Origin: Tabrizicola sp.
GTDB lineage: Bacteria; Pseudomonadota; Alphaproteobacteria; Rhodobacterales; Rhodobacteraceae
Direction: 5' to 3'
NCBI GenBank assembly: GCA_016792685.1
Contig: JAEULQ010000066.1
Span: 26,184-90,183 of the forward strand
DNA: 64,000 nucleotides
The notes below the pieces were generated by a model. The model was not told the origin of the DNA and did no database searches. It saw only the letters and a list, made by a program, of their open reading frames with translations. Position 1 is the first letter of the stretch. The number at the start of each line of letters is the position of its first letter. The translations under genes and the position numbers were made by a program. Below, in pieces: positions 24,569 to 41,625 of this stretch.

Positions 24569-24639
24569 GGCTGCGAATATCGGTGACAAGCCAGGGAGTC
24601 GCGGGCTAACTGGCGGCGGTGAGCCATGGAGAATCTGAC

Positions 24640-25311: not shown

Positions 25312-25319
25312 GTGACGCG

Positions 25320-26333
25320 ATGACCTTCCGGATGCCCGCCGAATGGGAAAGCCATGAACGCACTTTGATGTGTTGGCCCTGCCGGGAATATTCCTGGGGC
25401 CATACGCTGGAACAGGGCCGTCGCGAGTTCGCCGCCGTCGCCAATGCGATCGCGGCATTCGAGCCGGTGACCATGGTCGCCAAGAATGCCGAACAGGCCG
25501 CACAGGCGCGGACCTTGCTGGCTGGCAAGGTGGACGTGATCATTCGCCCCATCGATGGCTCATGGCTCCGCGACAACGGTCCCCTGTTCGTGACCGACGG
25601 CAATACTCGCCGCGCGCGCCACTTCCGCTTCAACGCCTGGGGCGAACGGCACGCGCAGCGCGACCGGGACGCGCGTCTGGGCCGGACCCTGGCCGAGGAC
25701 TTGGGTGACGAGGTCGATTTCGTCGACGTGGTGCTGGAAGGCGGTGCGGTCTCGATCGACGGCGCCGGCACGATGATCGCGCCCGAAGGCTGCGTCATGC
25801 ACGAAAGCCGGAACTGGTATCTGACCCGCGATCAGGTCGAAGCGCAGATCAAGGCCGCGCTGGGCCTGAACCGCATCATCTGGCTTGGCCAGGGCCTGGC
25901 CGAGGATTCAGTCCGCGACCCTTCGCGGATGTACTACGGCACCGACGGCCATGCCGACCTGTTCCTGGCCTTCATTGGTCCGAACCGCGCGCTCATGCTG
26001 AAATCGCCCGAGGATGACCCGAACGCACCCCATCTTGCCAAATCCCGCGCTACGCTGGTGGCGGCCGGCATCGAGATTGTCGATTTCCCCTACATGTCCG
26101 GCTTCATGGACGAGGGGAACTGGATCATCGCGCCCTACATGAACTTCTATTTCTGCAACGGTGGGGTGATCGTCCCCGTCGCAGGCGAAGAACCCGACAA
26201 GGATCAGGAAGCGCTGGCCTTTCTGGCGCAACTCTTCCCAGACCGGCAGGTTGTCGGCGTCAACCTCCGCGCCGGTCCGCGCCAGGGCGGGGCAATCCAC
26301 TGCATGACCATGCAAGTTCCGCTGCGCCCCTGA
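25320..26333 (+). CDS. Agmatine deiminase-family (PPAD-like) protein
   Basis: 337 residues, guanidino-group-modifying fold. The start MTFRMPAEWESHERTLMCWP is the usual AguA N-terminus. Further motifs are SWLRDNGPLFV, VVLEGGAVSIDG, GTDGHADLFLAF (His plus acidic pair) and the catalytic Cys328 in GGAIHCMTMQ. True agmatine deiminases convert agmatine to N-carbamoylputrescine and ammonia. Small differences in the motif around the His suggest that the substrate may be another guanidino compound. No N-carbamoylputrescine amidase gene is adjacent, which argues for caution about the agmatine name. Confidence 0.8.
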   Translation: MTFRMPAEWESHERTLMCWPCREYSWGHTLEQGRREFAAVANAIAAFEPVTMVAKNAEQAAQARTLLAGKVDVIIRPIDGSWLRDNGPLFVTDGNTRRARHFRFNAWGERHAQRDRDARLGRTLAEDLGDEVDFVDVVLEGGAVSIDGAGTMIAPEGCVMHESRNWYLTRDQVEAQIKAALGLNRIIWLGQGLAEDSVRDPSRMYYGTDGHADLFLAFIGPNRALMLKSPEDDPNAPHLAKSRATLVAAGIEIVDFPYMSGFMDEGNWIIAPYMNFYFCNGGVIVPVAGEEPDKDQEALAFLAQLFPDRQVVGVNLRAGPRQGGAIHCMTMQVPLRP

Positions 26334-26428
26334 TCCACCTTGCCGGGGGCGGATGTCCGGGCAGGGGGCACGATGCCGCGCGCTGCCTGCCCGCAGTCCC
26401 TTCCCGCACGCGGCAAAAAAACCGATCG

Positions 26429-26453
26429 TCACGCCCCCGTTTTCCTTTTGCCA
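26429..26453 (+). promoter_or_regulatory. Shared dyad motif, copy 1 (upstream of glutamine amidotransferase)
   Basis: TCACG, then a 15-base spacer starting CCCCCGTTTT, then a degenerate right half TGCCA. It lies 52-76 bases before the start at 26505. The left half and the core match copies at 29515-29539 and, on the minus strand, 40655-40679. The remainder of the 171-base gap contains no gene. The function is inferred from recurrence only. Confidence 0.55.
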
Positions 26454-26504
26454 AACCGGAACAGGATGGCACTAAACTTCCCGAAGCCCTGGAAGGAGAA
26501 CCCC

Positions 26505-27203
26505 ATGCAGCGCAAGATCGTGCTTGTCCGTCACGGCGATGACCCGCCCGATGACCGGGTTGTGACCTATGCGGTGCAGAACGGGTTCGAGCCGGTCTTC
26601 GTTCGCCCCTTCAAGGGCGAAAAGCTGGGTCAGCCGGGGCCGGATGTGGCAGGCTCGGTCGTCTACGGCGGGCCCTTCAATGTCTTCGAAGAGGACAAAC
26701 ATCCCTTCCTGAACGATGAGGCCGACTGGATCCGGTCCTGCATGGCGCAGGGGATTCCGATTCTGGGTCTGTGCCAGGGGGGCCAGCAGATCGCCAGGGT
26801 TCTCGGGGCCGAAGTCGGTCCTTACGATACGCCGGTCCATGAGTTCGGCTATTACCCGATCTCGCCCACCGCCGAAGGCCGCGATTTCCTGCCCGAGACG
26901 CTGCACATGACAGAGGCGCATTTCCACACCTTCGCCATTCCGGACGGCGCGGTGCATCTGGCGACAAGCCCGCTCTATCCCAACCAGGCCTTCCGCTACG
27001 GCGACAAGACCTATGCCTTCCAGTTCCACCCCGAATGCACGATTGAAGGCTTCCGGCGTTGGCAGTCGAACGAATGGGCGCCCTATGGCAAGCCCGGCGT
27101 TCAATCGAAGGCTGAACAGGATGCGCTGATGCCTGTGGCGGACGCCCTTCAGGCCGACTGGTTCTACGGATTCCTGCGAAAGCTCTTCGGCTCAGCTGCA
27201 TGA
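26505..27203 (+). CDS. Class I glutamine amidotransferase-like protein
   Basis: 232 residues. The start at 26505 has a strong GGAAGGAGA site. The triad of class I amidotransferases is present: nucleophile Cys in LGLCQGGQQIARVLG, and His and Glu in YAFQFHPEC. This is a stand-alone GATase-1 domain without an attached synthase. Such proteins hydrolyse glutamine or gamma-glutamyl amides, for example gamma-Glu-polyamine hydrolases. Context with deiminase and creatininase-family enzymes fits catabolic nitrogen release, but the substrate is not known. Four-base overlap with the transporter gene. Confidence 0.82.
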   Translation: MQRKIVLVRHGDDPPDDRVVTYAVQNGFEPVFVRPFKGEKLGQPGPDVAGSVVYGGPFNVFEEDKHPFLNDEADWIRSCMAQGIPILGLCQGGQQIARVLGAEVGPYDTPVHEFGYYPISPTAEGRDFLPETLHMTEAHFHTFAIPDGAVHLATSPLYPNQAFRYGDKTYAFQFHPECTIEGFRRWQSNEWAPYGKPGVQSKAEQDALMPVADALQADWFYGFLRKLFGSAA

Positions 27204-28081
27204 AATCACTGGCAGAGCGCAATCCGCAGGCTTTCGGCGTGCTGGTCACCCTTTGCGGGGTGATGATCTTTGTCCCCGATGCGCTGGTGATGCGGCTCAT
27301 CGGCGGCGACATGCTTGCGCTCGCCTTCTGGCGCGGGCTTCTGGCGGGCAGCATCTTCCTTTTGGGCAATCTGATCTTTGCCCGCCACACGATGCCCGCC
27401 AAGGGTGAATGGTTCGACCGCAAGGGGCTGCTCATCATCGGGCTGAACGCAGGTGGTGTTCTCAGCTGGTGTTCGGCCATGCAGTACACCTCGGCAGCGA
27501 ACGCACTTCTGGTGCTGGCCATCGCCCCGTTTCTGGCTGCGATCCTGTCATTCTTCCTTTTGAAGGAACGCATCGACCGCGCCACCGCCCTTGCTATCGC
27601 GCTGGTCTTTGCCGGAGTGCTGATCCTCGCCTCGGGCAGCCTTGGGCATGGGAGGCTTCTGGGGGACGGCTTTGCGCTGATGAATGCGCTGACCATCGCG
27701 GCCTACTATGTCACGCTGCGTACGACGGGCCGCCGAAACATGCTGCCGCATCTGGCGCTCGGGTCCATCCTCGGCGGGCTTCTGGCCGTGCCCTTTGCCG
27801 ATTTCGAGCCCGTCAGCACAACGCAGGCGCTGCTGATCTTCCTCTCCGGTGCGATCATCCTGCCCGGTGCGGCCGGTCTTCTGATCCTTGGCCCACGCTA
27901 CCTGCCCGCGCCCGAGGTCTCGATGATCACACTGCTGGAAGTGATCCTTGGCCCCCTTCTGGTCTGGGCGGTGATTGGCGAGAACCCCGGCCAGATGACC
28001 CTGATCGGCGGGACGGTCATCGTGATGACGGTCGCGCTCCACACCCTGCGCCGCCTGAGCCAACCCGAAAGCCCCGCCTGA
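27200..28081 (+). CDS. DMT-superfamily (EamA) transporter
   Basis: 293 residues with about ten transmembrane helices in two EamA repeats (first repeat ending near FLLKERIDRATALAIALVFAGV, second ending with LEVILGPLLVWAVIGENPGQMTLIGGTVIV). It belongs to the drug/metabolite exporter family of the inner membrane, members of which export amino acids, purines or other metabolites. Overlapping the genes on both sides by one to four bases, it is part of the amidotransferase operon and may export a by-product. Confidence 0.85.
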   Translation: MKSLAERNPQAFGVLVTLCGVMIFVPDALVMRLIGGDMLALAFWRGLLAGSIFLLGNLIFARHTMPAKGEWFDRKGLLIIGLNAGGVLSWCSAMQYTSAANALLVLAIAPFLAAILSFFLLKERIDRATALAIALVFAGVLILASGSLGHGRLLGDGFALMNALTIAAYYVTLRTTGRRNMLPHLALGSILGGLLAVPFADFEPVSTTQALLIFLSGAIILPGAAGLLILGPRYLPAPEVSMITLLEVILGPLLVWAVIGENPGQMTLIGGTVIVMTVALHTLRRLSQPESPA

Positions 28082-28677
28082 TGCGTCTTCTCTTTGTCCA
28101 CGCCCACCCGGTTCCCGAAAGCTTCAACGCCGCCCTTTGCGCGGCTGCCTTGGAAACCGCCCGCGCTCAAGGTCACGACGTCCGGCTGATTGACCTCCAC
28201 GCCGAGGGGTTCAATCCGGTCATGTCCACGGATGAACGTCGCGGATACACCGAGGACGTCCCGCTTCCTGCCGACCTTGTCCACCAGGTAGAGGCCCTTC
28301 AATGGGCCGAGGGGCTGATCCTCGTCTATCCCACCTGGTGGTATTCGCAGCCCGCGATCCTGAAGGGCTGGATGGACCGGGTCTGGCGGCCCGGCATCGC
28401 CTTTACGCTGCACGAGGAAGGCCAGCGCCTGCGCCCGGCACTGGCAAACATCCGGCTGATCGGGGTGATCACCAGCTTCGGTTCGCCCTGGTGGTTCTGG
28501 ACCTTCCTGATCGGCGCACCGGGGCGCAAGATCGTCCTGCGGGGCCTGCGGTTCTGCACGAACCGGCGGACAAAGACCTTCTGGCTGGGACTGCATGAGA
28601 TCGACGACCAGACCGAGGCCAGTCGCAAACGCTATATCGACAAGGTCCGCGCCCGCATCGCGCAGATCCCGCTATAG
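28081..28677 (+). CDS. NAD(P)H quinone oxidoreductase-like flavodoxin-fold protein
   Basis: 198 residues, of the MdaB/KefF/NQO1-type family. The N-terminus LLFVHAHPVPESFNAAL is the FMN/FAD phosphate loop; VYPTWWYSQPAILKGWMDRVWRPGIAFTL is the flavin-ring contact segment. These enzymes transfer two electrons from NAD(P)H to quinones or other acceptors in the cytoplasm. The ATG shares its A with the preceding TGA, so translation is coupled. The role in this operon is not evident. Confidence 0.85.
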   Translation: MRLLFVHAHPVPESFNAALCAAALETARAQGHDVRLIDLHAEGFNPVMSTDERRGYTEDVPLPADLVHQVEALQWAEGLILVYPTWWYSQPAILKGWMDRVWRPGIAFTLHEEGQRLRPALANIRLIGVITSFGSPWWFWTFLIGAPGRKIVLRGLRFCTNRRTKTFWLGLHEIDDQTEASRKRYIDKVRARIAQIPL

Positions 28678-28686
28678 GGTGCCATC

Positions 28687-29472
28687 ATGGGCCATATCGG
28701 ACACTGGGCAGACCTGACCGCCCCCGAATTCGCCGCCCTTGACCGCGAAAGCGCCGTAGCGATCCTGCCCATCGGCGCCATCGAACAGCACGGGCCCCAT
28801 CTGGCCATGTCGGTTGACCGCGACCTTACCATGGCCGTCCTGACCCGCGCCCTGCCGCAGATCAATCCCGACCTCACCGTCCTCGCCCTGCCCGTGCAGG
28901 CCATCGGCAAAAGCACCGAGCATCAGGCCTTTCCCGGCACGCTGTCCCTTTCGGCCGACACGCTGCTGCGTGTGCTCCAGGACATCGCCGCGTCAGTCCA
29001 TCGTGCGGGCATCCGTCGGCTGATGATCCTCAACGGCCATGGCGGCAACCGCGCGCTGCTGGAACTCGCAGCCCGCGACCTGCGCGCCGGACTGGGCCTG
29101 ATCACCGCCCATGTCGCCTGGGACGATCTGGCCAATGCCGAAAGCGTGGTCGGCGTGGCCGAAGCGCGGAACGGCCTTCACGCAGGCGACGTCGAAACCT
29201 CTGCCATGCTGGCCGCACATCCGGACAAGGTCCGCATCGACCGGGCCGAGGATTTCGGCTCGGCGCATCTCGATTGGCAAAAGTCCCACCCCGATCTCGG
29301 CCTTGGGGCAGCAGCACTGCGTCCCGGCTGGCTGATGGGTGACCTCAACCCCAAGGGCGCCATCGGCAACGCCGCCGCCGCGACGGCGGACAAGGGAGAA
29401 GCGCTGCTTGCCAACGCTGCCCGCAACCTTGCCCGGCTCATCGCCGACTTCGCCCGCTTCGCTCCGGGCTGA
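28687..29472 (+). CDS. Creatininase-family amidohydrolase
   Basis: 261 residues. Metal-site motifs of the creatininase family are complete: LPIGAIEQHGPHL, DRDLTMAVL, GKSTEHQAFPGTLSLS and LNGHGGNRALL, then a Glu in DVETSAML. The family includes creatinine amidohydrolase, MftE peptidase and 3-dehydro-scyllo-inosose and formamide-ring hydrolases, all with two metal ions. It sits nine bases after the quinone reductase-like gene. With a deiminase-family protein and dimethylglycine dehydrogenase-like proteins nearby, a creatinine-like substrate is possible but unproven. Confidence 0.85.
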   Translation: MGHIGHWADLTAPEFAALDRESAVAILPIGAIEQHGPHLAMSVDRDLTMAVLTRALPQINPDLTVLALPVQAIGKSTEHQAFPGTLSLSADTLLRVLQDIAASVHRAGIRRLMILNGHGGNRALLELAARDLRAGLGLITAHVAWDDLANAESVVGVAEARNGLHAGDVETSAMLAAHPDKVRIDRAEDFGSAHLDWQKSHPDLGLGAAALRPGWLMGDLNPKGAIGNAAAATADKGEALLANAARNLARLIADFARFAPG

Positions 29473-29514
29473 TCGCGAACTCACCCCGCCGCAATGACGT
29501 CGAATCCTTTGGGG

Positions 29515-29539
29515 TCACGTCCCCGTTTTGCTTGCGTGA
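29515..29539 (+). promoter_or_regulatory. Shared dyad motif, copy 2 (upstream of FAD-linked oxidase)
   Basis: A complete inverted repeat, TCACG-N15-CGTGA, with core CCCCGTTTTGCTT, 57-81 bases before the start of the FAD-linked oxidase. It is preceded by CTTTGGG, which is also conserved before the copy at 40655-40679. It is the best-formed of the three copies and has the spacing expected of a LysR-type or dimeric regulator site. Confidence 0.6.
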
Positions 29540-29595
29540 ACCCACGACGCCCCGGCCTTACCCTCTTTCGGTAACTCCCAACTCGAAAGCCGCGC

Positions 29596-30999
29596 ATGGC
29601 CAGCATCTCCGGCAAGACCACCACCGACTGGGTCGCCTTCGCGGCCGAATTGGCCCCGGTCGAGGTCATCGACGAGCCGGTTCTGGTCAAGAAACGCAGC
29701 CGCGATTTCTTCTGGTATTCCCCGATCCTCGACCGCCGCCTGAAGACCTGCTTCGGCGATCTGGTCGCAAGGCCCAAATCCCCCGCCGAGATGGCTAAAT
29801 GCCTATCCCTGTCGGCACGCCATCGCGTCCCCGTGACGCTGCGCGGCGGGGGAACCGGCAACTACGGCCAGTCGGTTCCGATGGAAGGCGGCCTCATCAT
29901 CGACACCACCGCCATGGGTGAAGTGCTTGAAATCGGGCCAGATTTCGTCCGAGTGCAGGCGGGATGCAACATCCTGAAACTGAACGAGGCCCTGAAGGCC
30001 AAGGGCCGTGAGCTTCCCGTCTTTCCCTCAACCCAGGACATCGCGACAATTGGCGGCTTCATTTCGGGCGGGTCGGCGGGTATTGGCACGGTCAGCCACG
30101 GCATGCTGCGCGACGCGGGAAATGTCCTGGAAATCCGCGCGCTTTCGGCCGAGGAGACTCCGCGCGAAGAAGTCTTCACCGGCGACCGGATCAACATGAT
30201 CCACCACGCCTGGGGCATCAACGGCGTTATCACCGAACTCACCCTCCGCACCGTTCCGACCGAAGACTGGATCGGCTGCATCGCCACCTTCGCCGACTAC
30301 CCAACCTGCTACGGCGCTGGCATGGCCCTTGCCGCTTCGGACATCCGCCGCAAGCTCTGCTCAACCCTCGACGCGCGGATAGGCACCTATTTCGACCGGC
30401 TGAAAGGCATCGTCCGCGAAGGCCATCCGATGCTGGTCACGCTGATCCCGCGCGGTCAGATGGGGGCCTTCCGCGCCCTCATCGCCGCCCATCACGGCAC
30501 GGTCGATCTCGAGATGGATGAGGCAGAACGTCAGGCCCGCAAGCTGCCGCATGCCTTCGAGTTTTCCTACAACCACACCACGCTGCAGGCGCTGAAGACT
30601 GACCGCAAGGTCACCTATCTGCAGATCCTCTGCCCCGCGCCGCTGAACGTGGCGAAGATCATCGAGCTGCAGGGCGTGCTCGGCGATGACGTCTTCATGC
30701 ACCACGAGTTTTCGTTGATGGGTGGGCAAAGGGTCGCCTTCGACCTTCCGCTGGTCAAATACACCACCGACGAACGGCTGTACGAGATCATGGGAATCTA
30801 CGAGGCGCATGGCTGCCCCGCCTCGGACCCGCATTCCTGCATCATCGAGGAGGGCGGCATGAAGAAGGCCGACTACCGCCACCTCGCCTGGAAAAAGCGG
30901 ATGGATCCGCTCGGCCTCCTGAATTCACCAAAGACCCGGGAATGGCCCCATGTGCGCAGCATGACACCCGAGGCCATCGAAGCCCTTCACCAAACCTGA
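29596..30999 (+). CDS. FAD-linked oxidase (FAD_binding_4 / PCMH-type)
   Basis: 467 residues. An FAD-binding PCMH-type domain covers about residues 50-230: [21 protein letters not shown] binds the pyrophosphate, and [21 protein letters not shown] follows. The C-terminal part is a cap domain without the Cys-rich Fe-S region of some D-lactate dehydrogenases. Such enzymes oxidise 2-hydroxy acids or alcohols, with electrons passed to quinone, cytochrome or O2. It is the first gene of a unit with two binding proteins, an amidohydrolase and a PrpD-like protein. The substrate is unknown. Confidence 0.82.
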
Positions 31000-31046
31000 C
31001 CAAGCAAGAGGCGGTTCGGCCGCCCGAACTCAACAAGGAGAGAGCC

Positions 31047-32693
31047 ATGACATTCAAGGATCAAAGCGGAAACGCCCTTCCTGACCACCTGACCAAAGCC
31101 GCGAAATCGCTGGGTTCCGACCCGCTGAGCCGTCGCGAATTCCTGGCGACGGCCACCGCTTTCGGTGCAACCACCGCGACCGCCTACGCCATGCTCGGAC
31201 TGGCCGCCCCTGCGCGCGCCGAAGGCACTCCGGTGAAGGGCGGGACCCTGCGTGTCGGCATGCAGGTGATGGAACTGAAAGACCCGCGGCTTGCGGACTG
31301 GTCGCAGATCGCCAACCTCGAGCGCCAGTTCCTTGAACCCCTGGTCAAGAACACCGCGGACTTCACCTTCGAAGGCAAGCTTCTGGAAAGCTGGGAAGTG
31401 AATGCCGACGCGACCAAATACATTCTGCGCGTCCGCCCGGGGGTGACCTGGACCAATGGCGATACCTTCAATGCCGACGACGTCGTCTTCAACATCACCC
31501 GCTGGTGCGACAAATCGGCCGAAGGCAACTCGATGGCGTCCCGTTTCGGGCCGCTGATCGACGAAGCGGCAGGTCGGGCGCGGGATGGCGCCATCGTCAA
31601 GGTCGATGACATGACGGTGGAGCTCAACCTGTCGGCCCCCGACATCACGATCATCCCCAGCATGTCGGACTATCCCGCACTTATCGTGCACCGCAGCTTT
31701 GATGAAACCGGCGCCAACCTTGCCGCGAACCCGATCGGAACCGGTCCGTTCGAGCTTGAAAGCCACGCCGTTGCTGGAAAGGCCCGCTTCGTGCGCCGGA
31801 CCAAAGGCAGCTGGTGGGGCGGGGAAGCGCATCTCGACGCGATCGAGTTCATCGACCTTGGCAATGACCCGGCGATCGAAGTCAACGCCTGGGGGTCGGA
31901 CGCGATCGACATGAACCAGCAGACCAGCGAGAACTTCATCGAGCAGCTCGATGCCCTCGGCCTGCAGCGTTACGAGATCGCCACGGCCAACACTGTCGTC
32001 GCACGTATGAACGTGGCGCAAGAGCCGTTCACCGATGTCCGCGTCCGCCAGGCATTGCAGGCCGCGGTCGACAACGCAAAGGTGCTGGAGCTTGGCGTGT
32101 CGGGACGCGGCACGGTCGCTGAAAACCACCATGTCAGCCCGATCCATCCTGAATATGCGGAACTGCCGAAACAGGTCCGTGATCCGGCCAAGGCCATCGC
32201 GCTTCTGACCGAAGCGGGCAAGCTCGATCACGAGTTTGAACTGATCTCGATCGACCAGGAATACCACCAGAACTCCTGCGACGCGATCGCCGCGCAGATC
32301 GCCGACGCTGGCATCAAGATCAAGCGGACGGTCATTCCCGGGGCAACGTTCTGGAACGACTGGACGAAGTATCCGTTCTCGATGACCAACTGGAACATGC
32401 GGCCGCTGGGCGTCCAGGTGCTGGCACTGGCCTATCGGTCGGGTGAACCCTGGAACGAAAGCGCCTACTCCAACCCCGATTTCGACGCCAAGCTCGCCAC
32501 CGCGCTTGCGACCGCCGATGTCGAGGCACGCCGCGCGATCATGGCCGAGCTTGAGGCGATGCTGCAGGGCGACGGCGTGCTGATCCAGCCCTTCTGGCAA
32601 AGCACCTTTGCCCACACCAGCCCCAAGGTGAAGGGCTACCGCGTCCACCAGACCGCCGAGCTGGACCTCGCCGACATCTGGCTCGAAGCCTGA
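31047..32693 (+). CDS. Family 5 solute-binding protein with Tat signal
   Basis: 548 residues. The start at 31047 follows AAGGAGAGAG. A twin-arginine signal ([16 protein letters not shown], about residues 28-43) precedes the mature periplasmic protein, which starts [12 protein letters not shown], the usual peptide/nickel binding-protein entry. RFGP and [17 protein letters not shown] segments support SBP_bac_5. It is expected to feed a Dpp/Opp-type permease, but none is in this cluster. Tat export is less common for this class and suggests folding or cofactor binding before export. Confidence 0.85.
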
Positions 32694-32810
32694 TCGTCCG
32701 CATCCATAAGTCCGGCGCGGCCCGATAGCCGCGCCGGACGACTGCACGACAACCCTGGGCGCTGCCATATCGGCACGGCCGAACCACTCACACTCTCGGA
32801 GAGCTTGAAG

Positions 32811-33863
32811 ATGAAGAAATCCCTAGCGCGCCTCCTTGCCTGTTCCGCCGTTCTCGCCATTCCCTCGCAGCTTCTCGCCGACGATCCCGAACTGATCGTG
32901 ACCGACTGGCCCGGCTTCGACGCCGAAGGAATGTACGCCCCCTACAAGGAGAAACACGGCGACCGGCCGACCTATGCCTTCGTCACCTCGGATGACGAGA
33001 CCTTCCAGAAAGCCGCCTCCGGCTTCGGCGCCGATGTCTCGCACCCCTGTGCCCAGATGGTGCCGAAATACCGCGAGATGGACCTGATCGAGCCCTGGGA
33101 CATCTCGCGCATTCCCGAGTTCAAGAACATCATGCCGGAATTCCTCGCCTCTCCCGTCATCCAGGATGAGGCCGGGGTCTGGATCATCCCCGCCGACTGG
33201 GGTGCCACGGCCATCGCCTACAACACCGAAACCGTCCCGGCCGAGGATGTCTCGACGCTCCAGGTCTTCACCGACCCGAAGTACGCCGGCAAGATCACGA
33301 TGCCCAATGCCTCGGACGACGTCTGGGCGCTGGCCTATCTTGCCACCGGCGTCACCGACTGGACCAAGGTCACCGACGAGCAGTTCAACGCCGCCGCCGA
33401 CTGGCTGCGCAAAGTGCATCCTGGCGTCCGCGCCTATGTGAACTCCTCGACCGAAATGGCCCAACTCATGAAGTCGGGCGAAGTGGCAGTCGCCTGGTCC
33501 TGGCCGGATGGCCTCTCGATCCTGCAGAAAGAGGGCTTCCCCGTCGGCTACCAGCGCACCCCCAAGGAAGGCGTGACCACCTGGTTCTGCGGCCTTGTGA
33601 ACCTCAAGAACGGCAAAGGCAGCGAGGACAAGGCCTATGACTACGTCAACTCCTGGATCCGCCCCGAAGCGGCCGAGGTTCTGGTCACCAACATCGGCTA
33701 CGGCCACGCCAATGCTGCGGGCATGAAGCTGATCGACCCGGCGGTCCTGGATGCCGCGGGCCTCGGGCCGATCAACGGGCCGACCCTGCCGCAGCTGCCG
33801 TTCGACCTCGACCTGCGGGAAAAGCAGCTCGAAACCTTCGAGCAGATCAAGGCCGGGTTCTGA
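32811..33863 (+). CDS. PotD-type solute-binding protein without neighbouring permease
   Basis: 350 residues from the ATG at 32811, chosen over an in-frame TTG at 32805 because GGAGAG ends eight bases upstream. The signal peptide is MKKSLARLLACSAVLAIPSQLLA. The mature part (DPELIVTDWPGFDAEGMYAPY, ADWGATAIAYNTETVP, VNSSTEMAQLMKSGEVAVAWSW) is that of spermidine/putrescine-type binding proteins. No permease or ATPase lies in the unit. It may use the PotABC-like system at 12-14.7 kb or one elsewhere. Confidence 0.83.
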   Translation: MKKSLARLLACSAVLAIPSQLLADDPELIVTDWPGFDAEGMYAPYKEKHGDRPTYAFVTSDDETFQKAASGFGADVSHPCAQMVPKYREMDLIEPWDISRIPEFKNIMPEFLASPVIQDEAGVWIIPADWGATAIAYNTETVPAEDVSTLQVFTDPKYAGKITMPNASDDVWALAYLATGVTDWTKVTDEQFNAAADWLRKVHPGVRAYVNSSTEMAQLMKSGEVAVAWSWPDGLSILQKEGFPVGYQRTPKEGVTTWFCGLVNLKNGKGSEDKAYDYVNSWIRPEAAEVLVTNIGYGHANAAGMKLIDPAVLDAAGLGPINGPTLPQLPFDLDLREKQLETFEQIKAGF

Positions 33864-33899
33864 GCGGACCAGAGGAAAGGCAAGGGGCACGGATACCGA

Positions 33900-35255
33900 A
33901 TGCAAGACCACCGACTGTCCATTCCGGACACCCCTTGCCTTGTCCTGTCAAACGCGCGCGTCCCGGCCGAACTTGTCGTGACGCCACCTCCGGGGGCGCG
34001 GAAGGACGCCGAAGGTGCGCTCCTCCTCGACCTCCTCCTCGACCGGGGCCTCATCGCGGGTCTCTTTCCCGCAGGCACCGCGCCCGATGCAGGCGCCCGT
34101 GTCGACCTGCTAGGCCGCCACCTCTGGCCCGCCTTCATCGACATGCACACCCACCTTGACTGCGGCCATGCCATCCCCCGCGTCCGGCCCGATGGCACGA
34201 TCCACGGCGGCTTCTCCCTGACCGCCGAGGACTGGCCCCGCTGGACCGACGCTGACCTCGACCTGCGCATGGAGTTCGGCATCCGTTGTGCCTATGCCCA
34301 CGGCGTTGCCGCGCTTCGCAGCCATGTCGACAGCGAAACCCTGGCCTATTCAAAGCACCATTGGCGGGCGCTGGACCGAATGCGCGCGAAATGGGCGGGA
34401 AAGGTCGACCTGCAAGGCGTCACCATCTGCGCGATGGAGGCCTGGGTCGGAGAAGACGCCCGTGCCCTCGCCGATCTTGCCGCCGACATGGGTGGCATCC
34501 TCGGCGGCGTCACTGATACGCTCGACCGGGGCGAGAACGGCACCTACGACGCACTTGCCCATGCGCTGGACAGACTCTTCGCGCTGGCCAAGGAACGCGA
34601 CCTGGATGTCGACCTCCACGTCGACCAGACCGAGGACCTCTCGGCCTTCACCATCCCCGAAATCGCCAAGGCTCGGCTGCGGTCGGGTTTTCAGGGCCGG
34701 GTGGTCCTTGGCCACTGCGTAAACCTCTCGCTGATGTCGCCCGAGGTGATCGACGAGACGCTGGCCCTTGCGAAAGAAGCTGACCTCGCCTTTGTCTCGA
34801 TGCCGACCCCGATGATGTACCTGATGGACCGCAAGCCTGGCCGCACACCGCGCTGGCGGGGCGTCACCGCGGCCAATGAAATCCGCGCCGCCGGCCTGCC
34901 CTTGGCCATCGGCGGCGACAACTGTCGTGACGCCTGGTTCGCTTACGGTGACCACGACATGCTGGACACGCTGAAACAGGCGATCCGGGTCTTTCAGGCC
35001 GATGAGCCGCTGACCGGCAGCCTTGCCATGGCCTCCCGCGTGCCGGCCGACCTGATCGGCCGCCCCGACCTTGGCCGCATCGGCGTGGGCCTGCCCGCCC
35101 ATCTGGTGATCTTCCAGTCCCGCAGCCTGAACACCGTCCTCGCCCGCGATCAGGCCGACCGGATCGTGCTGAAACACGGGCGACAGGTGACCGACCCTCT
35201 GCCGCAACATCACGAGCTTGAAGCGGCCCTCGGGCTGGCGGACACTCTTGCTTAA
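33900..35255 (+). CDS. Cytosine deaminase-like amidohydrolase
   Basis: 451 residues. Metal and catalytic motifs of the CodA-type amidohydrolases are complete: HxH in IDMHTHLDCG, His in DVDLHVDQTED, His in VVLGHCVNLS and Asp in GGDNCRDAWFAYG. It is a second, diverged copy of the enzyme type at 9732-10898. It probably removes an amino group from, or opens, a nitrogen heterocycle or cyclic amidine. It lies 36 bases after the binding protein and 18 bases before the PrpD-like gene, so it is likely in the same operon. Confidence 0.83.
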   Translation: MQDHRLSIPDTPCLVLSNARVPAELVVTPPPGARKDAEGALLLDLLLDRGLIAGLFPAGTAPDAGARVDLLGRHLWPAFIDMHTHLDCGHAIPRVRPDGTIHGGFSLTAEDWPRWTDADLDLRMEFGIRCAYAHGVAALRSHVDSETLAYSKHHWRALDRMRAKWAGKVDLQGVTICAMEAWVGEDARALADLAADMGGILGGVTDTLDRGENGTYDALAHALDRLFALAKERDLDVDLHVDQTEDLSAFTIPEIAKARLRSGFQGRVVLGHCVNLSLMSPEVIDETLALAKEADLAFVSMPTPMMYLMDRKPGRTPRWRGVTAANEIRAAGLPLAIGGDNCRDAWFAYGDHDMLDTLKQAIRVFQADEPLTGSLAMASRVPADLIGRPDLGRIGVGLPAHLVIFQSRSLNTVLARDQADRIVLKHGRQVTDPLPQHHELEAALGLADTLA

Positions 35256-35273
35256 GCTTTCAAGGATCGCGCT

Positions 35274-36596
35274 ATGCAGTTGACCGACTTCATCCATGGC
35301 CTCCGGTGGGAGGATGTGCCCACCCCGGTGCAGGACCGCACCCGCGATTTCCTTGTCGACCTTCTGGGCGTCGCAACCGGTGGCATCGGCACCCGCCTTG
35401 CCCGGATCATCTGCGACCATGCCGCCGACCAGTTCGCCCCCGGAAGCGCTCCGGCGCGGATGCTGTTGGATGGCCGCAAGGTCAGCCCCGCCGGGGCAGC
35501 TCTGGCAGGTGGTATGACCATCGACGCCTACGACGCTCACGATGGCCACCGCCTGACCAAGGGCCATGCCGGTTGCGCTGCCCTTCCCGCCGCCATGGCC
35601 ATGGCGGAGGCGACAGGAAGACTGGACGGCGGCGACCTCTTGGTCTCGCTGCTTCTGGGCTACGAAATCGGCACCCGCGCAGGCGTCGCGCTGCACCGCA
35701 CCGCCTGCGACTACCACACCACCGGGGCCTGGACCGCGCTCTCCTGTGCCGCCATCGGTGCGCGCTATCTGGGGCTGACGGCAGATCAGACCCGCCACGC
35801 CCTTGGCATCGCCGAATACCACGGCCCCCGCAGCCAGATGATGCGCTGCATTGACCATCCGACCATGCTGAAGGACGGCTCCGGCTGGGGCGGCATGGCA
35901 GGGGTCTCCGCCGCCTATCTCGCCCGGTCGGGCTTCACCGGCGCGCCCGCCATCACGGCGGAAGGCGATGACGTGGCCGACCTCTGGGGCGACCTTGGGC
36001 AAACCTGGCGGGTGATGGAGCAGTACTATAAACCCTTCCCGGTCTGCCGCTGGGCGCAGCCTCCGGTGCAGGCCGTCCTCTCGTTGATGCAGGGCCACGG
36101 GCTAAGCTCGACCGACGTCGCGCGGATCGAGATCGTGACCTTCCACCAATCCCTGCGCCTTGCCACCCGGACGCCTGCTACGACCGAAGAGGCGCAGTAT
36201 TCCACCGCCTTCCCCGCCGCCGTCGCCGCCGTGCGTGGCACGATCGGCCCCGAGGACATCACCGAAGCCGCTTTCGCCGACCCGGAAATCCGCCGACTGG
36301 CCGAAGGCATGCTGGTCACCGAATCCGACACTTACAACGCGGCCTTTCCGGCCCGCCGCTTCGCCCATGCCGCGCTTGTGCTGCAGGACGGCACCCGTCT
36401 TGAATCCCCGCCCACCGAAGCCCGTGGCGACCCCGAGGCGATGGTCTCCCGCGAGGAGATGCGCCAGAAGTTCCACGCCTGCGCCGATCCGGTTCTGGGC
36501 ACCGTGCGGGCCACGGCCCTTTGCGCTGCGGCCGAGGGCCTGACCCCCGGAAATCCCGCGCAGAACCTTCTGGATTTGGCCTTGGCCAAACCTTGA
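35274..36596 (+). CDS. MmgE/PrpD-family protein
   Basis: 440 residues. Family signatures are FLVDLLGVATGGIGTRLAR, DAYDAHDGHRLTKGHAG (conserved region near the active site), LLLGYEIGTRAG, and FPVCRWAQPPVQAVLSL. Known members are 2-methylcitrate dehydratase and cis-aconitate/itaconate-type enzymes; many others have unassigned dehydratase or isomerase activity. No methylcitrate cycle genes are near, so propionate metabolism is unlikely. It is the last gene of the unit, convergent with the dimethylglycine dehydrogenase-like gene. Confidence 0.83.
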   Translation: MQLTDFIHGLRWEDVPTPVQDRTRDFLVDLLGVATGGIGTRLARIICDHAADQFAPGSAPARMLLDGRKVSPAGAALAGGMTIDAYDAHDGHRLTKGHAGCAALPAAMAMAEATGRLDGGDLLVSLLLGYEIGTRAGVALHRTACDYHTTGAWTALSCAAIGARYLGLTADQTRHALGIAEYHGPRSQMMRCIDHPTMLKDGSGWGGMAGVSAAYLARSGFTGAPAITAEGDDVADLWGDLGQTWRVMEQYYKPFPVCRWAQPPVQAVLSLMQGHGLSSTDVARIEIVTFHQSLRLATRTPATTEEAQYSTAFPAAVAAVRGTIGPEDITEAAFADPEIRRLAEGMLVTESDTYNAAFPARRFAHAALVLQDGTRLESPPTEARGDPEAMVSREEMRQKFHACADPVLGTVRATALCAAAEGLTPGNPAQNLLDLALAKP

Positions 36597-36650
36597 CAAA
36601 TCCCTAACGCCCGCGATCAAGATATTGATATTGAAGGCGTTCCGGATTTT

Positions 36651-36663
36651 GTCCACTGTGGAC
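36651..36663. repeat. Short perfect palindrome between convergent genes
   Basis: GTCCACTGTGGAC, a 6-bp inverted repeat around one base, lies in the 68-base gap between the PrpD-like and the dimethylglycine dehydrogenase-like gene stops. The gap is AT-rich (AAGATATTGATATTGAAG before it). It is too short for a convincing terminator and may be a protein site or chance. Confidence 0.3.
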
Positions 36664-36664
36664 A

Positions 36665-39100
36665 CTAGGCCCGCAGACGCTTCCCCTCCGGGTCGAACGC
36701 CGCCCCCTCCAGTACCCGCGCCCGATGCGGCCGACCCAGGACCATGACCTCCAGCTCGGCCCCCGCCGTGATATCGGGTCGCAGATAGGCCAGCGCCAAC
36801 GACTGCCCAACATGGTAGCCATAGGCCCCGCTGGAAACCTTCCCCGCAGGCTTCCCCGCCAGATCAAAGATCGGCTCGTTCCCCGTCGCATCCGCCGTGG
36901 TGACCTCGATCACCAGCGTCCGCAAGACCTCCCTCGGGGCCAAGTCCGCGATGGCCGCATAGGCCCCCTTGTTCAGGAAGTCCTTCTCCATCTTGATCAG
37001 CCCCGCGAGGCCCGTTTCCTGAGGCCAGTACTCGGGCGAGTAATCCCGCCCCCAGGACCCGTAGCCCTTCTCCACCCGCAAGCTCATCAGCGCCCGGCTG
37101 CCCACCGGCCCGGCTCCGACCGCCTTGCCCGCCTCCAACAGCGCCGCATAAAGCCGGGCCTGGTCGCCTTCCGCGCAGTGAAGCTCCCAACCCAGATCGC
37201 CGGTGAAGCTGACCCGCTGCGCGATGCAGGGGACCCCCGCCACCTCGATCTGCTGGGACCGCATGAAGGGGAAGACCTCGTTCGACAGGTCCGCATTGGT
37301 CAGCCTCTTGAGCAGCTCCCGCGCCATAGGCCCAGCCACATTGAAGCCCGCCATCGCCTCGGTCACGCTCTCCCACTGCGTCCCCGCAGGCAGCGGCACC
37401 GCATCGAAGAACCGCTTGTGATAGCGTTCCGCCATGCCCGAGCCGACCATGAAATAGTCGCCCTCGCCCAGACAGGTGACGGTGAAATCCCCGGCAATCC
37501 CGCCCCGCTTGCCGATCAGCGGGGCAAGACAGGACCGTCCCGGAACGCCGGGAATGCGGTTGGCAAGCAAAGCCTCCAGCCAATCCTTCGCCCCCGGTCC
37601 GGTGATCCGGTAGCGGGCGAAGTTCGAGATGTCGATGATCCCGGCGCGGTCACGCAAGCTGCGGGCTTCGCGGCCCACGGGACCCCACCAGTTCTGGCGG
37701 TCAAAGCCGATGGTTTCTTCCCTGGGCTCGCCCTCGGCCGAAAACCACAGGGGATGCTCCCAGCCGTAGTTCAGACCGAAGACCGCCCCCATCGCCTTCT
37801 GAGTTTCATAGATCGGACGGGTGCGGACGGGGCGACCGGCGCCGCGTTCCTCGTTCGGGAAGTGGATCTTGAACCGGTTCGCGTACTGGTCGCGGACGCG
37901 GGCCTTGGTGAAATCCTTGCCCGCCCAGGCCCCGAACCGGGCGAGGTCCCAGCCGAACATGTCAAGCTTGGGTTCGCCCTGCACGATCCATTCCGCTGAC
38001 AGAAGGCCAAGACCGCCGGATTGTGAAAAGCCGGGGATGATCCCGTTGCAGCAGAAATAATTGCGCAGCTCCGGTACGGGCCCGAAGAGAGCGGATGAAT
38101 CCGGCGACCAGATCATCGGCCCGTTGATCACCCGCTTGATCCCGGCACTGCCGACCACAGGCACCCGGTCAATGGCGCGAAGCATGTTCGGCTCGATCCG
38201 CTCCAGATCATCGGCGAAAAGCTCGTGGCCAAAGCCTTGCGGCGTGCCTTCTTCGGCCCAGAACTTCATGTCGCGCTCATAGGCACCGACGAGCAGGCCC
38301 TTGCCTTCCTGCCGCAGGTAATACTCGCCGTCCCGGTCGGCGACCGAGGGCAGGCGGCGGTCCATCGCGGCGATTTCGGGGATGGTTTCGGTGACGAAAT
38401 ACTGGTGCTCGGTCGGCATCAGGGGCAGGGTGATCCCCGCCAGCGCCGCCACTTCACGCGCCCAAAGGCCCGCAGCATTGACGACCCATTGGGTGTGAAC
38501 CTCGCCCAGCGGCGTTTCGACGATCCATGACCCATCCGCCTGCGGCCGCGTCGCCGTCACCGGGCAATTGCGGTGGATCTGCGCGCCGCGCGCCCGGGCC
38601 CCCGCTGCATAGGCCATGGTCACGCCCGAGGGGTCGACGTTGCCGCCTTGCGGTTCATACATGATGCAGCGGATGCCGTCGAAGTTGACGAGGGGATGCA
38701 GACGCTCTGCCTCGGCCCGGGTCACCTCATAGAAATCCATGTCGTAGTAACGGGCCTTGGCGGCCTGCAGGCGCAACTGATGCTCGCGCGCCTCGGTCTG
38801 GGCCAGATAAAGCGAGCCAGGCTGGAAGATGCCGCAGCCCTGTCCCGTCTCGGCCTCCAGCTCTTTGTAGAGCCCCATCGTATAATGCTGCAACCGGCTG
38901 ATGTTGGTCGAATCATGCAGCCCGTGGATGTTCGCCGCCGCATGCCAGGTGGAGCCTGAGGTCAGTTCCGACCGCTCCAAGAGGATGACATCCGTCCAGC
39001 CCAGCTTGGTCAGGTGGTAAAGGATTGAGCAGCCGACCAGTCCGCCCCCGATCACAACGGCCTGGGCGTGGGATTTCAACTTTGCTTCAGGGCTCGTCAT
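36665..39100 (-). CDS. Dimethylglycine/sarcosine dehydrogenase-like FAD and folate protein (second copy)
   Basis: 811 residues. Same architecture as the 19,464-21,887 protein: FAD motif VIGGGLVGCS (about 16-25), WHAA with His52 where covalent FAD is attached in dimethylglycine dehydrogenase, FAO_M, and a C-terminal GcvT-type folate domain (FTGDLGWELHCAEG, VEKGYGSWGRDYSPEYWPQE). It probably oxidatively demethylates an N-methyl compound. Its start lies inside the end of the MttB-family gene (14-base overlap), so the two are translated together and likely act in one pathway. Confidence 0.86.
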   Translation of the reverse strand: MTSPEAKLKSHAQAVVIGGGLVGCSILYHLTKLGWTDVILLERSELTSGSTWHAAANIHGLHDSTNISRLQHYTMGLYKELEAETGQGCGIFQPGSLYLAQTEAREHQLRLQAAKARYYDMDFYEVTRAEAERLHPLVNFDGIRCIMYEPQGGNVDPSGVTMAYAAGARARGAQIHRNCPVTATRPQADGSWIVETPLGEVHTQWVVNAAGLWAREVAALAGITLPLMPTEHQYFVTETIPEIAAMDRRLPSVADRDGEYYLRQEGKGLLVGAYERDMKFWAEEGTPQGFGHELFADDLERIEPNMLRAIDRVPVVGSAGIKRVINGPMIWSPDSSALFGPVPELRNYFCCNGIIPGFSQSGGLGLLSAEWIVQGEPKLDMFGWDLARFGAWAGKDFTKARVRDQYANRFKIHFPNEERGAGRPVRTRPIYETQKAMGAVFGLNYGWEHPLWFSAEGEPREETIGFDRQNWWGPVGREARSLRDRAGIIDISNFARYRITGPGAKDWLEALLANRIPGVPGRSCLAPLIGKRGGIAGDFTVTCLGEGDYFMVGSGMAERYHKRFFDAVPLPAGTQWESVTEAMAGFNVAGPMARELLKRLTNADLSNEVFPFMRSQQIEVAGVPCIAQRVSFTGDLGWELHCAEGDQARLYAALLEAGKAVGAGPVGSRALMSLRVEKGYGSWGRDYSPEYWPQETGLAGLIKMEKDFLNKGAYAAIADLAPREVLRTLVIEVTTADATGNEPIFDLAGKPAGKVSSGAYGYHVGQSLALAYLRPDITAGAELEVMVLGRPHRARVLEGAAFDPEGKRLRA

Positions 39101-40607
39101 CGCCGATCTCTTCCCGCCGCTTGGCGACATAGGCTTCCAGTTCCTCGCGGATGGCAGGGTCCATCGGCGGTTCTTCATACTCAGCCAGCGCCTGCTGCCA
39201 AAGGTCGGTCGCGCGGTCACCCGCTTCCTTCGCCCCGGCCAGCGCCCAGTTCTCATACCCTCGCCAGTCGGACAGCATCGGCTGATAGAAGGCCTTTTCA
39301 TAGCGTGCCATCGTATGGGCCGCGCCAAAGAAATGGCCGCCCGCAGGCACATCGCGGATGGCGTCGAAGCCCAGTTCCTCGGCATCCCATTTCAGGGGTC
39401 GCAGGAATTCCACCATGTTCTGCAGGATTTCCACGTCGAGTATCAGTTTCTCGTAGCTTGCGGTCAGCCCGCCCTCCAGCCAGCCTGCCGCGTGGTAGAT
39501 CAGGTTCGCGCCGCCCATGACCGCGCCCCAGGTGGCCATCGAGGTCTCATAGGCCGCCTGCAGGTCGACCGCGTTCGAGGCATTGGCGTTCGAGGTCCGG
39601 TAGGGCAACCCGTAGCGCCGCGCCAACTGGCCCGCGATGACATTGGCCTTGGTATTCTCCGGCGTGCCGAAAGCTGGCGCGCCCGAGCGCATGTCGACAT
39701 TCGAGGTGAAGGCCCCGTACATCACGGGCGCCCCTGGTTTGACCAGCTGGGTCAGGACAACGCCGAACAGCGCCTCGGCATTCTGCTGGGCCATGGCGGC
39801 GGGCAGGGAGACCGGGGTCATCGCGCCCATCAGGGTGAAGGGGGTAATTGTCACCGGCTGGCCGTGTTCGGCCATTGCGATCAGGCCATCGCCCATCGCG
39901 TCATCCAGAAGCCGCGGCGAGTTGACCGAAATGATGGTGATGACTCCGGGATCCTTCGCCATCTCCTCAAGGCTGACCCCGCGCGAGATAGCCATCATCC
40001 GGATGCCGTCCATTGCCCGGCCCCTCCCGATCGCTGTGCAGTGGAAGGTCAGGTCCGAGAGCGTCAGATTTGCGAAATAGGTGTCCAGATGCCGGTTGTT
40101 CGCGGGCAGCTCCTGCGGCGCGGTTACCTGATTGCCGATCATGTGGATCGTGTTGAAGTGATGCGCGAGGCGGATGAAGTTCTGGTAGTCGGCCAGGTTC
40201 CCCGACCTACGGCCATTCACCCGGTCATGCACATTGGGCGGCCCGGCGACCAGCCCGAAGACCAGATGGTCGCCGCCCAGATGCACCCGCTTCACCGGGT
40301 TGCGCGGGGTCAGCGTGAACTGGCGCGGGACGGTCGCAAGTGCTGCTTCCACATGGGTCTCGTCGATCCGCACGACCCCGTCACCGTCGATCTTTGCCCC
40401 GGCCGCCGCAAACAGCGCCCGCACATTGGCACCCATCACCTTGACGCCCAGTTCCTTCAGGATGCGGATCGAGGTGTCGTGCAGATCCTGCATCTGGTCC
40501 GGCGACAAAAGCTCCATCGGCGCATAGGGGTTGCGGACAACCTCCCATGGCAGTTGGGCGATGCTGGCCCCGGCCTTTTCGCGCCGCCCCCGTCTTGCTT
40601 CCCGCAT
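39087..40607 (-). CDS. MttB-family (trimethylamine methyltransferase-like) protein, non-pyrrolysine
   Basis: 506 residues, COG5598 family. The barrel is recognised from GLVAGPPNVHDRVNGRRSG, GVITIISVNSPRLLDDAM, PVTITPFTLMGAMTPV, and the C-terminal YHAAGWLEGGLTASYEKLILD. There is no in-frame UAG, so this is a non-pyrrolysine homologue, the group that includes glycine betaine- and other quaternary amine-demethylating enzymes. Those transfer a methyl group to a corrinoid protein, but no corrinoid protein gene is present here. It pairs with the overlapping flavin/folate dehydrogenase. The start MREARRGRREKAG was chosen by family length. Confidence 0.85.
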   Translation of the reverse strand: MREARRGRREKAGASIAQLPWEVVRNPYAPMELLSPDQMQDLHDTSIRILKELGVKVMGANVRALFAAAGAKIDGDGVVRIDETHVEAALATVPRQFTLTPRNPVKRVHLGGDHLVFGLVAGPPNVHDRVNGRRSGNLADYQNFIRLAHHFNTIHMIGNQVTAPQELPANNRHLDTYFANLTLSDLTFHCTAIGRGRAMDGIRMMAISRGVSLEEMAKDPGVITIISVNSPRLLDDAMGDGLIAMAEHGQPVTITPFTLMGAMTPVSLPAAMAQQNAEALFGVVLTQLVKPGAPVMYGAFTSNVDMRSGAPAFGTPENTKANVIAGQLARRYGLPYRTSNANASNAVDLQAAYETSMATWGAVMGGANLIYHAAGWLEGGLTASYEKLILDVEILQNMVEFLRPLKWDAEELGFDAIRDVPAGGHFFGAAHTMARYEKAFYQPMLSDWRGYENWALAGAKEAGDRATDLWQQALAEYEEPPMDPAIREELEAYVAKRREEIGDDEP

Positions 40608-40654
40608 CTTATGCCCTCGCCTTTTGCCGCAGCCTAAAACTCGGGCAGACAAAG

Positions 40655-40679
40655 TCACGAAAGCGAAACGGGGGCCTGA
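40655..40679 (-). promoter_or_regulatory. Shared dyad motif, copy 3 (upstream of MttB-family gene)
   Basis: Read on the minus strand: TCAGG, 15 bases beginning CCCCCGTTTCGCTTT, then CGTGA; it lies 48-72 bases before the methyltransferase start. CTTTGGG precedes it as at copy 2. It lies in the divergent promoter shared with the LysR gene at 40756, the obvious candidate to bind it. Confidence 0.58.
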
Positions 40680-40755
40680 CCCAAAGATATTCTGGGGCAT
40701 AATCTGTGGCTCGATCCCGGCAGATCGACTAGTCTGGCCACAGGAGAATGTGTCG

Positions 40756-41625
40756 ATGAAATACCTGCCGCCCCTGAACTACATTCGATCATTCGAGGCC
40801 TCCGCGCGCCACCTTAGCTTTACTAAGGCCGCAGAGGAGCTGCGGATGACCCAGGCGGCCGTCTCGGGTCATGTGCGGGCACTGGAACAGTTTATCGGCC
40901 GTCCGCTCTTCTACCGCGCCCCGCGCAGTCTGACCCTGACCGAGGTCGCCTCGGCCTATCTTCCGGCCCTGCAACGGGCGCTTGCGCAGATCGACGTGGC
41001 GACCGGCCAGGTCCAGACGGTGCGGCACCGCAAGGAAGTCACGATTGCCTGCCCGGCAAGCCTGGCCACCAACTGGCTGCCGGAACGCCTGAAGGCCTAC
41101 CGGGAGGAGAACCCGGAAGTCGAGGTGACCGTCCACGCGACGATCTGGGCAGAAGCCACCGAGCAGATCGTCGACCTCCGGATCATTCCACGCCATGTCA
41201 GCCAGCCCCTTGTCGGCGAAAGCCTGGGCGAAGAGCTTCTCGTCATGGTCTGTCGGCCCGATTTCCTGACCGGACCCGAGGGCATTCGGACCCCGGCCGA
41301 TGTCCTGCGCAAGGGATTGATCCATATCCTAGGGCGGCAGGAGCTTTGGGAGGCCTTTGCCCGCCACCACGGCATTCCCGATCTTCCTTTGGTGCAGGGC
41401 CTGAAGACCGACAGCTCCAACGTCGCGCTTGAGATGGCGATTGCCGGCCTGGGCTGCGCGGTCACGCTGGCTTCGTTGGCTGCGGTCCATATTCGGCGCG
41501 GCTCGCTGGTCGAGCCCTTCCCCGGCCGGATCCCAAGCGGATGGGGCTATGACTTGCGACCGGGCGAACTTAGCCCCACCCGCGCCAGCGAAAGGCTTAT
41601 GCAGTTCTTGCTGCAACGCGGTTGA
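40756..41625 (+). CDS. LysR-family regulator (GcvA-like)
   Basis: 289 residues. The start at 40756 follows AGGAGAA at suitable distance. The N-terminal winged HTH spans about residues 6-65 (LNYIRSFEASARHLSFTKAA, then MTQAAVSGHVRALEQFIGRPLF), the pattern of the GcvA/AmpR subgroup. The effector domain follows (VTIACPASLATNWLPERL). It is divergent from the MttB-dehydrogenase pair and probably regulates it. The dyad in the shared promoter recurs before two more units, so its regulon may be wider. Confidence 0.87.
   Translation: MKYLPPLNYIRSFEASARHLSFTKAAEELRMTQAAVSGHVRALEQFIGRPLFYRAPRSLTLTEVASAYLPALQRALAQIDVATGQVQTVRHRKEVTIACPASLATNWLPERLKAYREENPEVEVTVHATIWAEATEQIVDLRIIPRHVSQPLVGESLGEELLVMVCRPDFLTGPEGIRTPADVLRKGLIHILGRQELWEAFARHHGIPDLPLVQGLKTDSSNVALEMAIAGLGCAVTLASLAAVHIRRGSLVEPFPGRIPSGWGYDLRPGELSPTRASERLMQFLLQRG

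Follow-up and report, generated by a model that had tools for sequence, protein, structure and literature searches.

A conserved motif upstream of three operons as a probable operator of a divergently encoded LysR-type regulator in Tabrizicola sp.

Introduction

GcvA, the LysR-family activator of glycine cleavage in Escherichia coli, is reported to have two inverted repeats separated by 22 bp; relative to the start point of its target they lie at −65 and −43, the second beside the −35 element and the first serving self-repression (PMC5002191). This protein (PDB 8y6u) is the best structurally solved relative (2.4e-41) of a LysR-type regulator encoded in a 64,000-nucleotide stretch of a Tabrizicola sp. 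genome (GenBank assembly GCA_016792685.1, contig JAEULQ010000066.1, positions 26,184 to 90,183 of the forward strand; hereafter the window, in which positions are counted from its first letter), and both have a divergent gene at the regulator. Here we analyze a 25-bp motif that recurs upstream of three operons in the window, one of which is divergent from the LysR gene. Sequence comparisons make it very likely that the motif is part of an operator for this LysR protein, which would activate the three operons as a unit. These proposed targets, which encode among others an MttB-family methyltransferase, a dimethylglycine dehydrogenase-like protein (DMGDH) and a flavin adenine dinucleotide (FAD)-binding oxidase, are unlike those of GcvA, and the window LysR scores 213.5 bits with the NCBIfam GcvA model, under its cut-off of 288.

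Three further systems invite comparison. The regulator of choline sulfate utilization (NCBIfam TIGR03418) is likewise of the LysR type and controls catabolism of a quaternary amine; it is the second NCBIfam match of the window LysR, which at 143.4 bits remains far under the cut-off of 324.8. The target genes of that regulator are presumably absent from the window cluster. TmaR governs trimethylamine catabolism in the Roseobacter group, another case in which marine bacteria control the catabolism of a methylated amine as a regulon, but that system comprises other genes, and the word LysR does not occur in the main text (PMC13390433). Finally, the window MttB protein belongs to a superfamily with solved relatives (PDB 4yyc and the glycine betaine methyltransferase 9yce), scores 278.1 bits with the trimethylamine/pyrrolysine model, whose cut-off is 525, and is paired with DMGDH. 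A literature search by titles and abstract openings, with most subscription journals outside its coverage, returned no paper on the regulon described here.

Results and discussion

A recurring motif upstream of three operons

The three motif copies, TCACGCCCCCGTTTTCCTTTTGCCA and TCACGTCCCCGTTTTGCTTGCGTGA on the forward strand and TCAGGCCCCCGTTTCGCTTTCGTGA on the reverse strand, were found in the window sequence where the initial annotation had located them (Table 1). Copies 2 and 3 are preceded by CTTTGGG, as it had noted, and copy 3 indeed lies inside the divergent LysR promoter region, the gap between the MttB and LysR starts being 148 bp with the start codons used. All copies are oriented towards the gene they precede, with 76, 81 and 72 bases between the motif start and the ATG at 26505, 29596 and 40607, respectively. 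A pattern derived from the three copies themselves, with two mismatches allowed, matched the window exactly three times and did not match any of 100 dinucleotide-shuffled versions.

The motif had been described as a 25-bp dyad. Its recurrence at three places stands, whereas the symmetry is perfect at copy 2 only: in the pairing of TCACG with CGTGA across 15 intervening bases, copy 2 matches at five of five positions, copy 3 at four and copy 1 at two, and ten site-1 sequences (site 1 to 3 denoting the position before operon 1 to 3) match at one to three. The feature that the copies share is an asymmetric core, CCCCGTTTTnCTT, at a fixed promoter distance, and not a dyad. Moreover, sequence conservation reaches upstream of the 25 bp. 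The conserved block measures about 42, 48 and 46 bp at sites 1, 2 and 3, respectively, and the sequence outside it varies; by this comparison, the 25-bp motif makes up the portion nearest the promoter within a block of 42–48 bp. Each promoter carries its own version of the motif, site 1 mostly ending in TTTTGCCA, site 2 in GCGTGAAC and site 3 in TTCGTGA.

The core could also be read as an intrinsic terminator, GGGG-TCACGT-CCCC followed by GTTTT, that ends operon 1 before operon 2. Terminator-like matches are listed at 29510–29525, 37 bases after the creatininase-family stop codon, and the GGGG/CCCC stretches pair at three to four of four positions in most site-2 sequences and at three of four in window site 3. 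However, the region contains six such matches against a shuffle mean of 9.4; of the three copies, copy 2 alone is among them, whereas a terminator would call for a GC stem followed by a T run at each; site-1 sequences pair at zero to two of four positions; and site 3 is situated between two divergent genes. As the spacing to the −10-like element described below is fixed as well, we rejected this reading, which has hardly any probability left.

Table 1. Predicted regulatory elements and genes of the cluster in the window
Feature	Position	Strand	Description
Operator 1 (GATase operon)	26412..26453	+	Conserved block GGCAAAAAAA...TCACGCCCCCGTTTTCCTTTTGCCA; 25-bp core 26429-26453; core in 10/11 matching promoters
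Predicted −10, TAAACT	26473..26478	+	Spaced 19 bp from operator 1; offset shared by TAnnnT in 10/10 site-bearing promoters
Operon 1	26505..29472	+	Class-I glutamine amidotransferase (GATase) 26505-27203; EamA transporter 27200-28081; flavodoxin-like/flavin mononucleotide (FMN) reductase 28078-28677; creatininase-family 28687-29472. Extent predicted from gene spacing; Pfam, conserved gene order
Operator 2 (FAD-oxidase operon)	29494..29541	+	Conserved block ATGACGTCGAATCCTTTGGGGTCACGTCCCCGTTTTGCTTGCGTGAAC; 25-bp core 29515-29539; core in 10/11 matching promoters
Predicted −10, TACCCT	29559..29564	+	Spaced 19 bp from operator 2; offset shared by TAnnnT in 10/10 site-bearing promoters
Operon 2	29596..36596	+	FAD-binding oxidase 29596-30999; SBP_bac_5 30942-32693; SBP_bac_8 32805-33863; amidohydrolase 33900-35255; MmgE/PrpD 35274-36596. 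Extent predicted from gene spacing; Pfam, conserved gene order
Operator 3 (MttB-DMGDH operon)	40655..40700	−	25-bp core 40655-40679; within LysR divergent promoter region; core in 7/8 matching promoters
Predicted −10, TAGGCT	40631..40636	−	18 bp after operator 3; TAnnnT at 18 or 19 bp in 7/7 site-bearing promoters
Operon 3	36665..40607	−	MttB-family methyltransferase 39087-40607; DMGDH-like 36665-39121. Pfam, translation, PDB relatives
LysR-type regulator, GcvA-like	40756..41625	+	Proposed binder of the three operators
Promoter-like match for LysR, CTGACC-16-CATAAT	40676..40703	+	First hexamer overlaps operator 3; 1 found in region vs shuffle mean 1.7

Conservation and specificity

Relatives of the cluster were sought via the FAD oxidase, which yielded 80 loci, and gene maps were made for 25 of them. 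The cluster is present in ten of the mapped loci (L014–L022 and L065) from nine genomes, L015 and L018 being two contigs of one set; L022 and genome G274 were taken as one genome, and both give an identical site. In the window and these ten clusters, the motif is kept at 27 of the 30 matching promoters (Table 1), contrary to the non-conservation in gene-keeping relatives that the initial annotation had named as refuting a common regulator. The contigs of L015, L018 and L065 end inside the DMGDH gene, which puts site 3 and the LysR neighborhood there beyond reach; in all seven near clusters whose contig extends far enough (L014, L016, L017 and L019–L022), LysR adjoins MttB. The genes in the middle vary, L019, L020 and L021 giving no SBP_bac_8 or PrpD match, and L021 also no SBP_bac_5 match beside the FAD oxidase. 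The motif is missing at sites 1 and 2 of L021 and at site 3 of L014, and by profile score it is weaker at site 2 of L018 (23.7), site 1 of L020 (19.6) and site 3 of L021 (20.6). In the MttB–LysR intergenic region of L014, where the right-hand core of site 3 is lost, a stretch ATGACC..GGAATCCCTT resembles the left part of site 2.

Upstream of the FAD oxidase, the other 70 loci showed no site within 150 bases, either by eye or by score. The motif is therefore a property of the near clade and not of FAD-oxidase clusters in general. Profile matches of at least 10.5 did occur in six of these loci (L026, L055, L060, L070, L071 and L078), but only that in L070 exceeded 14.4; this match (24.2) lies within open frames of more than 200 codons, has no TAnnnT 18–19 bp downstream and was taken as chance.

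The profile used for scoring was built from 26 of the 27 sites of the window and its relatives, site 3 of L017, which is identical to that of L016, being omitted. In the 3.58-Mb genome from which the window derives, where 150 of 1705 first-look candidates were scored, the three copies reached 25.6, 25.1 and 24.5 bits and the next of nine listed matches 14.0, a result at odds with the scattering of copies over unrelated positions that had been named as a second ground for refutation. The 14-base core pattern TCASGNCCCCGTTT, without mismatch, likewise occurs genome-wide only at the three places. G274 gave 22.9, 20.2 and 19.3 bits, then 12.7, and G030, a genome with a rearranged cluster, gave 14.5 bits before its GATase gene. 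Best scores in ten further genomes ranged from 12.7 to 18.2 bits; the matches in G113, G266 and G204 (18.2, 17.6 and 17.5 bits) were taken as chance, as no cluster gene lies in the 8–9 kb around them; the one similarity to the window there, at 33%, is to a gene that is not part of the cluster. A long pattern with two mismatches allowed matched four of 295 family genomes, namely that of the window, G274, G243 and G271, and by eye the matches in the last two seem to lie in coding sequence. With no match in 100 shuffles, three strong copies in the genome, retention at 27 of 30 promoters and flanks that differ between copies, chance recurrence or a dispersed repeat element is an exceedingly improbable origin of the motif.

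Promoter geometry

Downstream of the motif, a −10-like TAnnnT hexamer is present in all 27 conserved sites, at an offset of 19 bp in 24 and of 18 bp in three, and within about 50 bases downstream of these sites TAnnnT occurs at any other offset only four times. The initial annotation had placed the copies at the same distance before each transcription unit; the tightest fixed distance is that to the −10-like element, not that to the start codon. If transcription starts about 7 bp after the hexamer, the motif is centered at about −43/−44 in the three window promoters, which matches the second GcvA site as given in PMC5002191. A promoter-proximal T-N11-A box (motif positions 13–25) is present in 25 of 27 sites.

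A scan of the region for promoters listed no consensus sigma-70 promoter at the three positions, in keeping with a poor −35 element that needs an activator. The spacing GG-N10-GC, which characterizes sigma-54 promoters, was not found by eye, and a sigma-54 promoter was rejected. The fixed 18–19 bp to the −10-like element and the overlap with the −35 region would also suit an extended core-promoter signature of some sigma factor; such a signature would, however, be difficult to reconcile with a 3.58-Mb genome that has just three strong copies, with conservation extending to about −78, and with the long pattern being confined to the four family genomes mentioned, two of them seemingly with coding matches only, and we regard it as very improbable.

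The regulator

The product of the LysR gene contains an HTH_1 and a LysR substrate domain, and by Pfam it is the only regulator among the cluster genes of the window. The initial annotation had named it as the common regulator. This assignment is supported by its being the sole regulator of the cluster and by the combined motif and promoter layout at the genes of its relatives, from which we propose that it binds the three operators.

A search of 285 family genomes with the window LysR gave matches in 31. In G030, a close relative, split into pieces of 57 and 81% identity, is divergent from DMGDH. The cluster is rearranged there: PrpD, an amidohydrolase match of 31%, FMN reductase and GATase follow at 2.6–6.6 kb from LysR, on the other strand. 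Operator-like sites with a TAG exactly 19 bp on nevertheless occur both before DMGDH (21.2, shuffle maximum 4.5) and before GATase, about 6.5 kb away (19.7, shuffle maximum 11.0); scored as motif plus −10, both promoters gave p = 0.003, the floor of 300 shuffles. The G030 LysR gene (L180, 6010–6866) is in two frames, as a broken gene or an assembly error, with the operator-like sites still kept.

Among the outside LysR relatives for which a locus was available, we then compared the nearest 15 (L126–L140, 40–57% identity) with 13 further GcvA-like proteins as controls (L141–L153, 34–40% identity). The split was made by match order and neighbors, with the tree made afterwards, and five further LysR matches without locus were left out; four controls (L147–L149 and L151) have 22–25% matches to a DMGDH or MttB gene. 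The test LysR genes face PrpD in 11 of 15 cases, DMGDH in two and MttB in one, which suggests that PrpD belongs to the older regulon. When intergenic regions were scored for motif plus −10 at p ≤ 0.03 against 300 shuffles, 11 of the 15 relatives but only one of the 13 controls passed (hypergeometric 6e-4), and a repeat with fresh shuffles gave ten and one, respectively. With 20 column-permuted motifs combined with the same −10 part, zero to three of 15 passed. TAnnnT at 18 or 19 bp is present in nine of the 11 passing relatives (L126, L128, L131–L134, L136, L137 and L140), whereas the passing control, L144 (p = 0.030 and 0.025), is without it.

In a tree of 33 rows, the window LysR, the near-clade LysRs and the set L127–L140 fall into one 20-row clade (92/90) with no control inside, the nearest control, L148, being on a long branch. 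The recognition-helix stretch ends in S-x-H in all clade members read and in SKQ or SQQ in 11 of 13 controls, the others being L144 (SKH) and L148 (SQR). Together, the tree and the tests on outside relatives tie the layout to this clade of LysR proteins and not to specific targets.

L126 has two motif-like halves (13.8 and 12.4) at about 50–94 bases from the start of its LysR gene. They lie on opposite strands, pointing apart with an overlap of a few bases, and site 3 of L021 resembles this arrangement by eye. These halves may reflect an older two-sided operator.

A number of observations weigh against assigning the motif to LysR. On its own, the motif separates relatives from controls weakly, with 6 of 15 versus 2 of 13 on both strands (at most 6 of 200 shuffles; hypergeometric 0.15) and 5 of 15 versus 1 of 13 on the forward strand; this test came first, the combined one having been devised after the spacing was noticed by eye. 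Among the relatives, L127, L130, L138 and L139 fail the combined test, L129 has a strong motif without TAnnnT at the offset, the motif part of L140 is weak, and the match in L135 does not resemble a promoter and no longer reached p ≤ 0.03 when the test was repeated. Site 3 is missing from L014 although LysR and MttB are kept, and sites 1 and 2 are missing from L021, which has kept LysR and the genes behind those promoters. A second T-N11-A box 22 bp further upstream occurs in 13 of 17 sequences at sites 2 and 3 and in none of ten at site 1. The profile was trained on the very near-clade sites on which it is counted. Finally, the core CCCCGTTTTnCTT..GTGA differs from the GcvA operator, ATTA-N7-TAAT with CTAAT (PMC5002191), neither of which was seen by eye in the 26 aligned 25-base cores; on the curated cut-off as well as on the operator, the window LysR does not qualify as a GcvA ortholog. 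The weak motif-alone result lowers our confidence in the assignment by a trifle, most of its effect being offset by the permuted-motif control.

The weak separation by the motif alone also counts in favor of a rival reading, in which the motif would be the operator of a regulator encoded elsewhere, such as the GntR/FCD protein at 24619, an AraC-type regulator or a nucleoid protein, with LysR acting on MttB-DMGDH or another target only. Site 1 is the most divergent in its right half (TTTTGCCA), and operon 1 has the GntR gene 1.2 kb upstream of it. The GntR protein, however, found no tblastn match in the ten near-clade loci, of which L015, L016 and L065 extend less than 2.3 kb upstream of GATase, and was rejected on this ground; the window holds no other regulator between GATase and LysR; and the motif-plus-promoter layout is found in the intergenic regions of the LysR relatives themselves and at both LysR-linked promoters of G030. 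Control from elsewhere thus appears unlikely. The GntR/FCD gene and an agmatine-deiminase-like gene occupy 24619–26333, just upstream of operon 1, a segment without match in the near-clade clusters.

Proposed mechanism and gene content

For regulation by LysR, we envisage that a dimer of dimers would cover the 42–48-bp block, roughly from −78 to −31, with the 25-bp core overlapping the poor −35 element. With an inducer bound, LysR could contact RNA polymerase and so activate GATase-EamA-FMN reductase-creatininase, FAD oxidase-solute-binding proteins-amidohydrolase-PrpD and MttB-DMGDH. Because the first hexamer of the weak promoter-like match for LysR overlaps operator 3, autoregulation is tentatively suggested, and the same complex might, as in GcvA, repress the divergent LysR promoter. 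The predicted regulon is conserved, and its operator is new to the searched literature; the regulatory logic is conventional.

The MttB-family protein gives a full-length family match (679.5 bits, Pfam), and the translation of its gene contains no in-frame TAG. DMGDH carries a folate-binding domain, the operon 2 amidohydrolase belongs to the cytosine-deaminase-like family, and no corrinoid-protein gene is among the cluster genes scanned. Since an MttB without TAG and a folate-domain DMGDH occur here with creatininase- and amidohydrolase-family enzymes and solute-binding proteins, the gene content suggests that an N-methylated nitrogen compound is taken up and broken down by demethylation, in a pathway that is probably undescribed. 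The initial proposal of one pathway fits the co-conservation of the cluster, the pathway itself being a prediction from gene families.

More tentatively, and with slightly less than even odds, this may be a catabolic regulon new to the searched literature, in which an MttB without pyrrolysine, DMGDH and creatininase-, amidohydrolase-, GATase- and PrpD-family proteins degrade an N-methylated compound, while LysR relatives that share its operator logic would point to branches of this one pathway family-wide. If so, knowing the inducer would show what an orphan MttB group acts on. Three operons of unassigned role are joined into a single predicted unit whose operator, promoter and regulator are defined, and three reporters and one LysR would offer a simple route to the substrate of the MttB-DMGDH pair.

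A second DMGDH-like gene is located at 19464–21887 on the reverse strand, 17 kb from that of operon 3 and 71–72% alike over the two longest DNA matches. Genome G000 (about 89% complete) contains six MttB-family genes, on C5, C106, C27 (two), C46 and C4, and a single B12-binding_2 match (C22:41598–41810) in a 242-residue open reading frame resembling a corrinoid protein; six MttB genes to one such frame raise the question of a shared or dispensable corrinoid partner.

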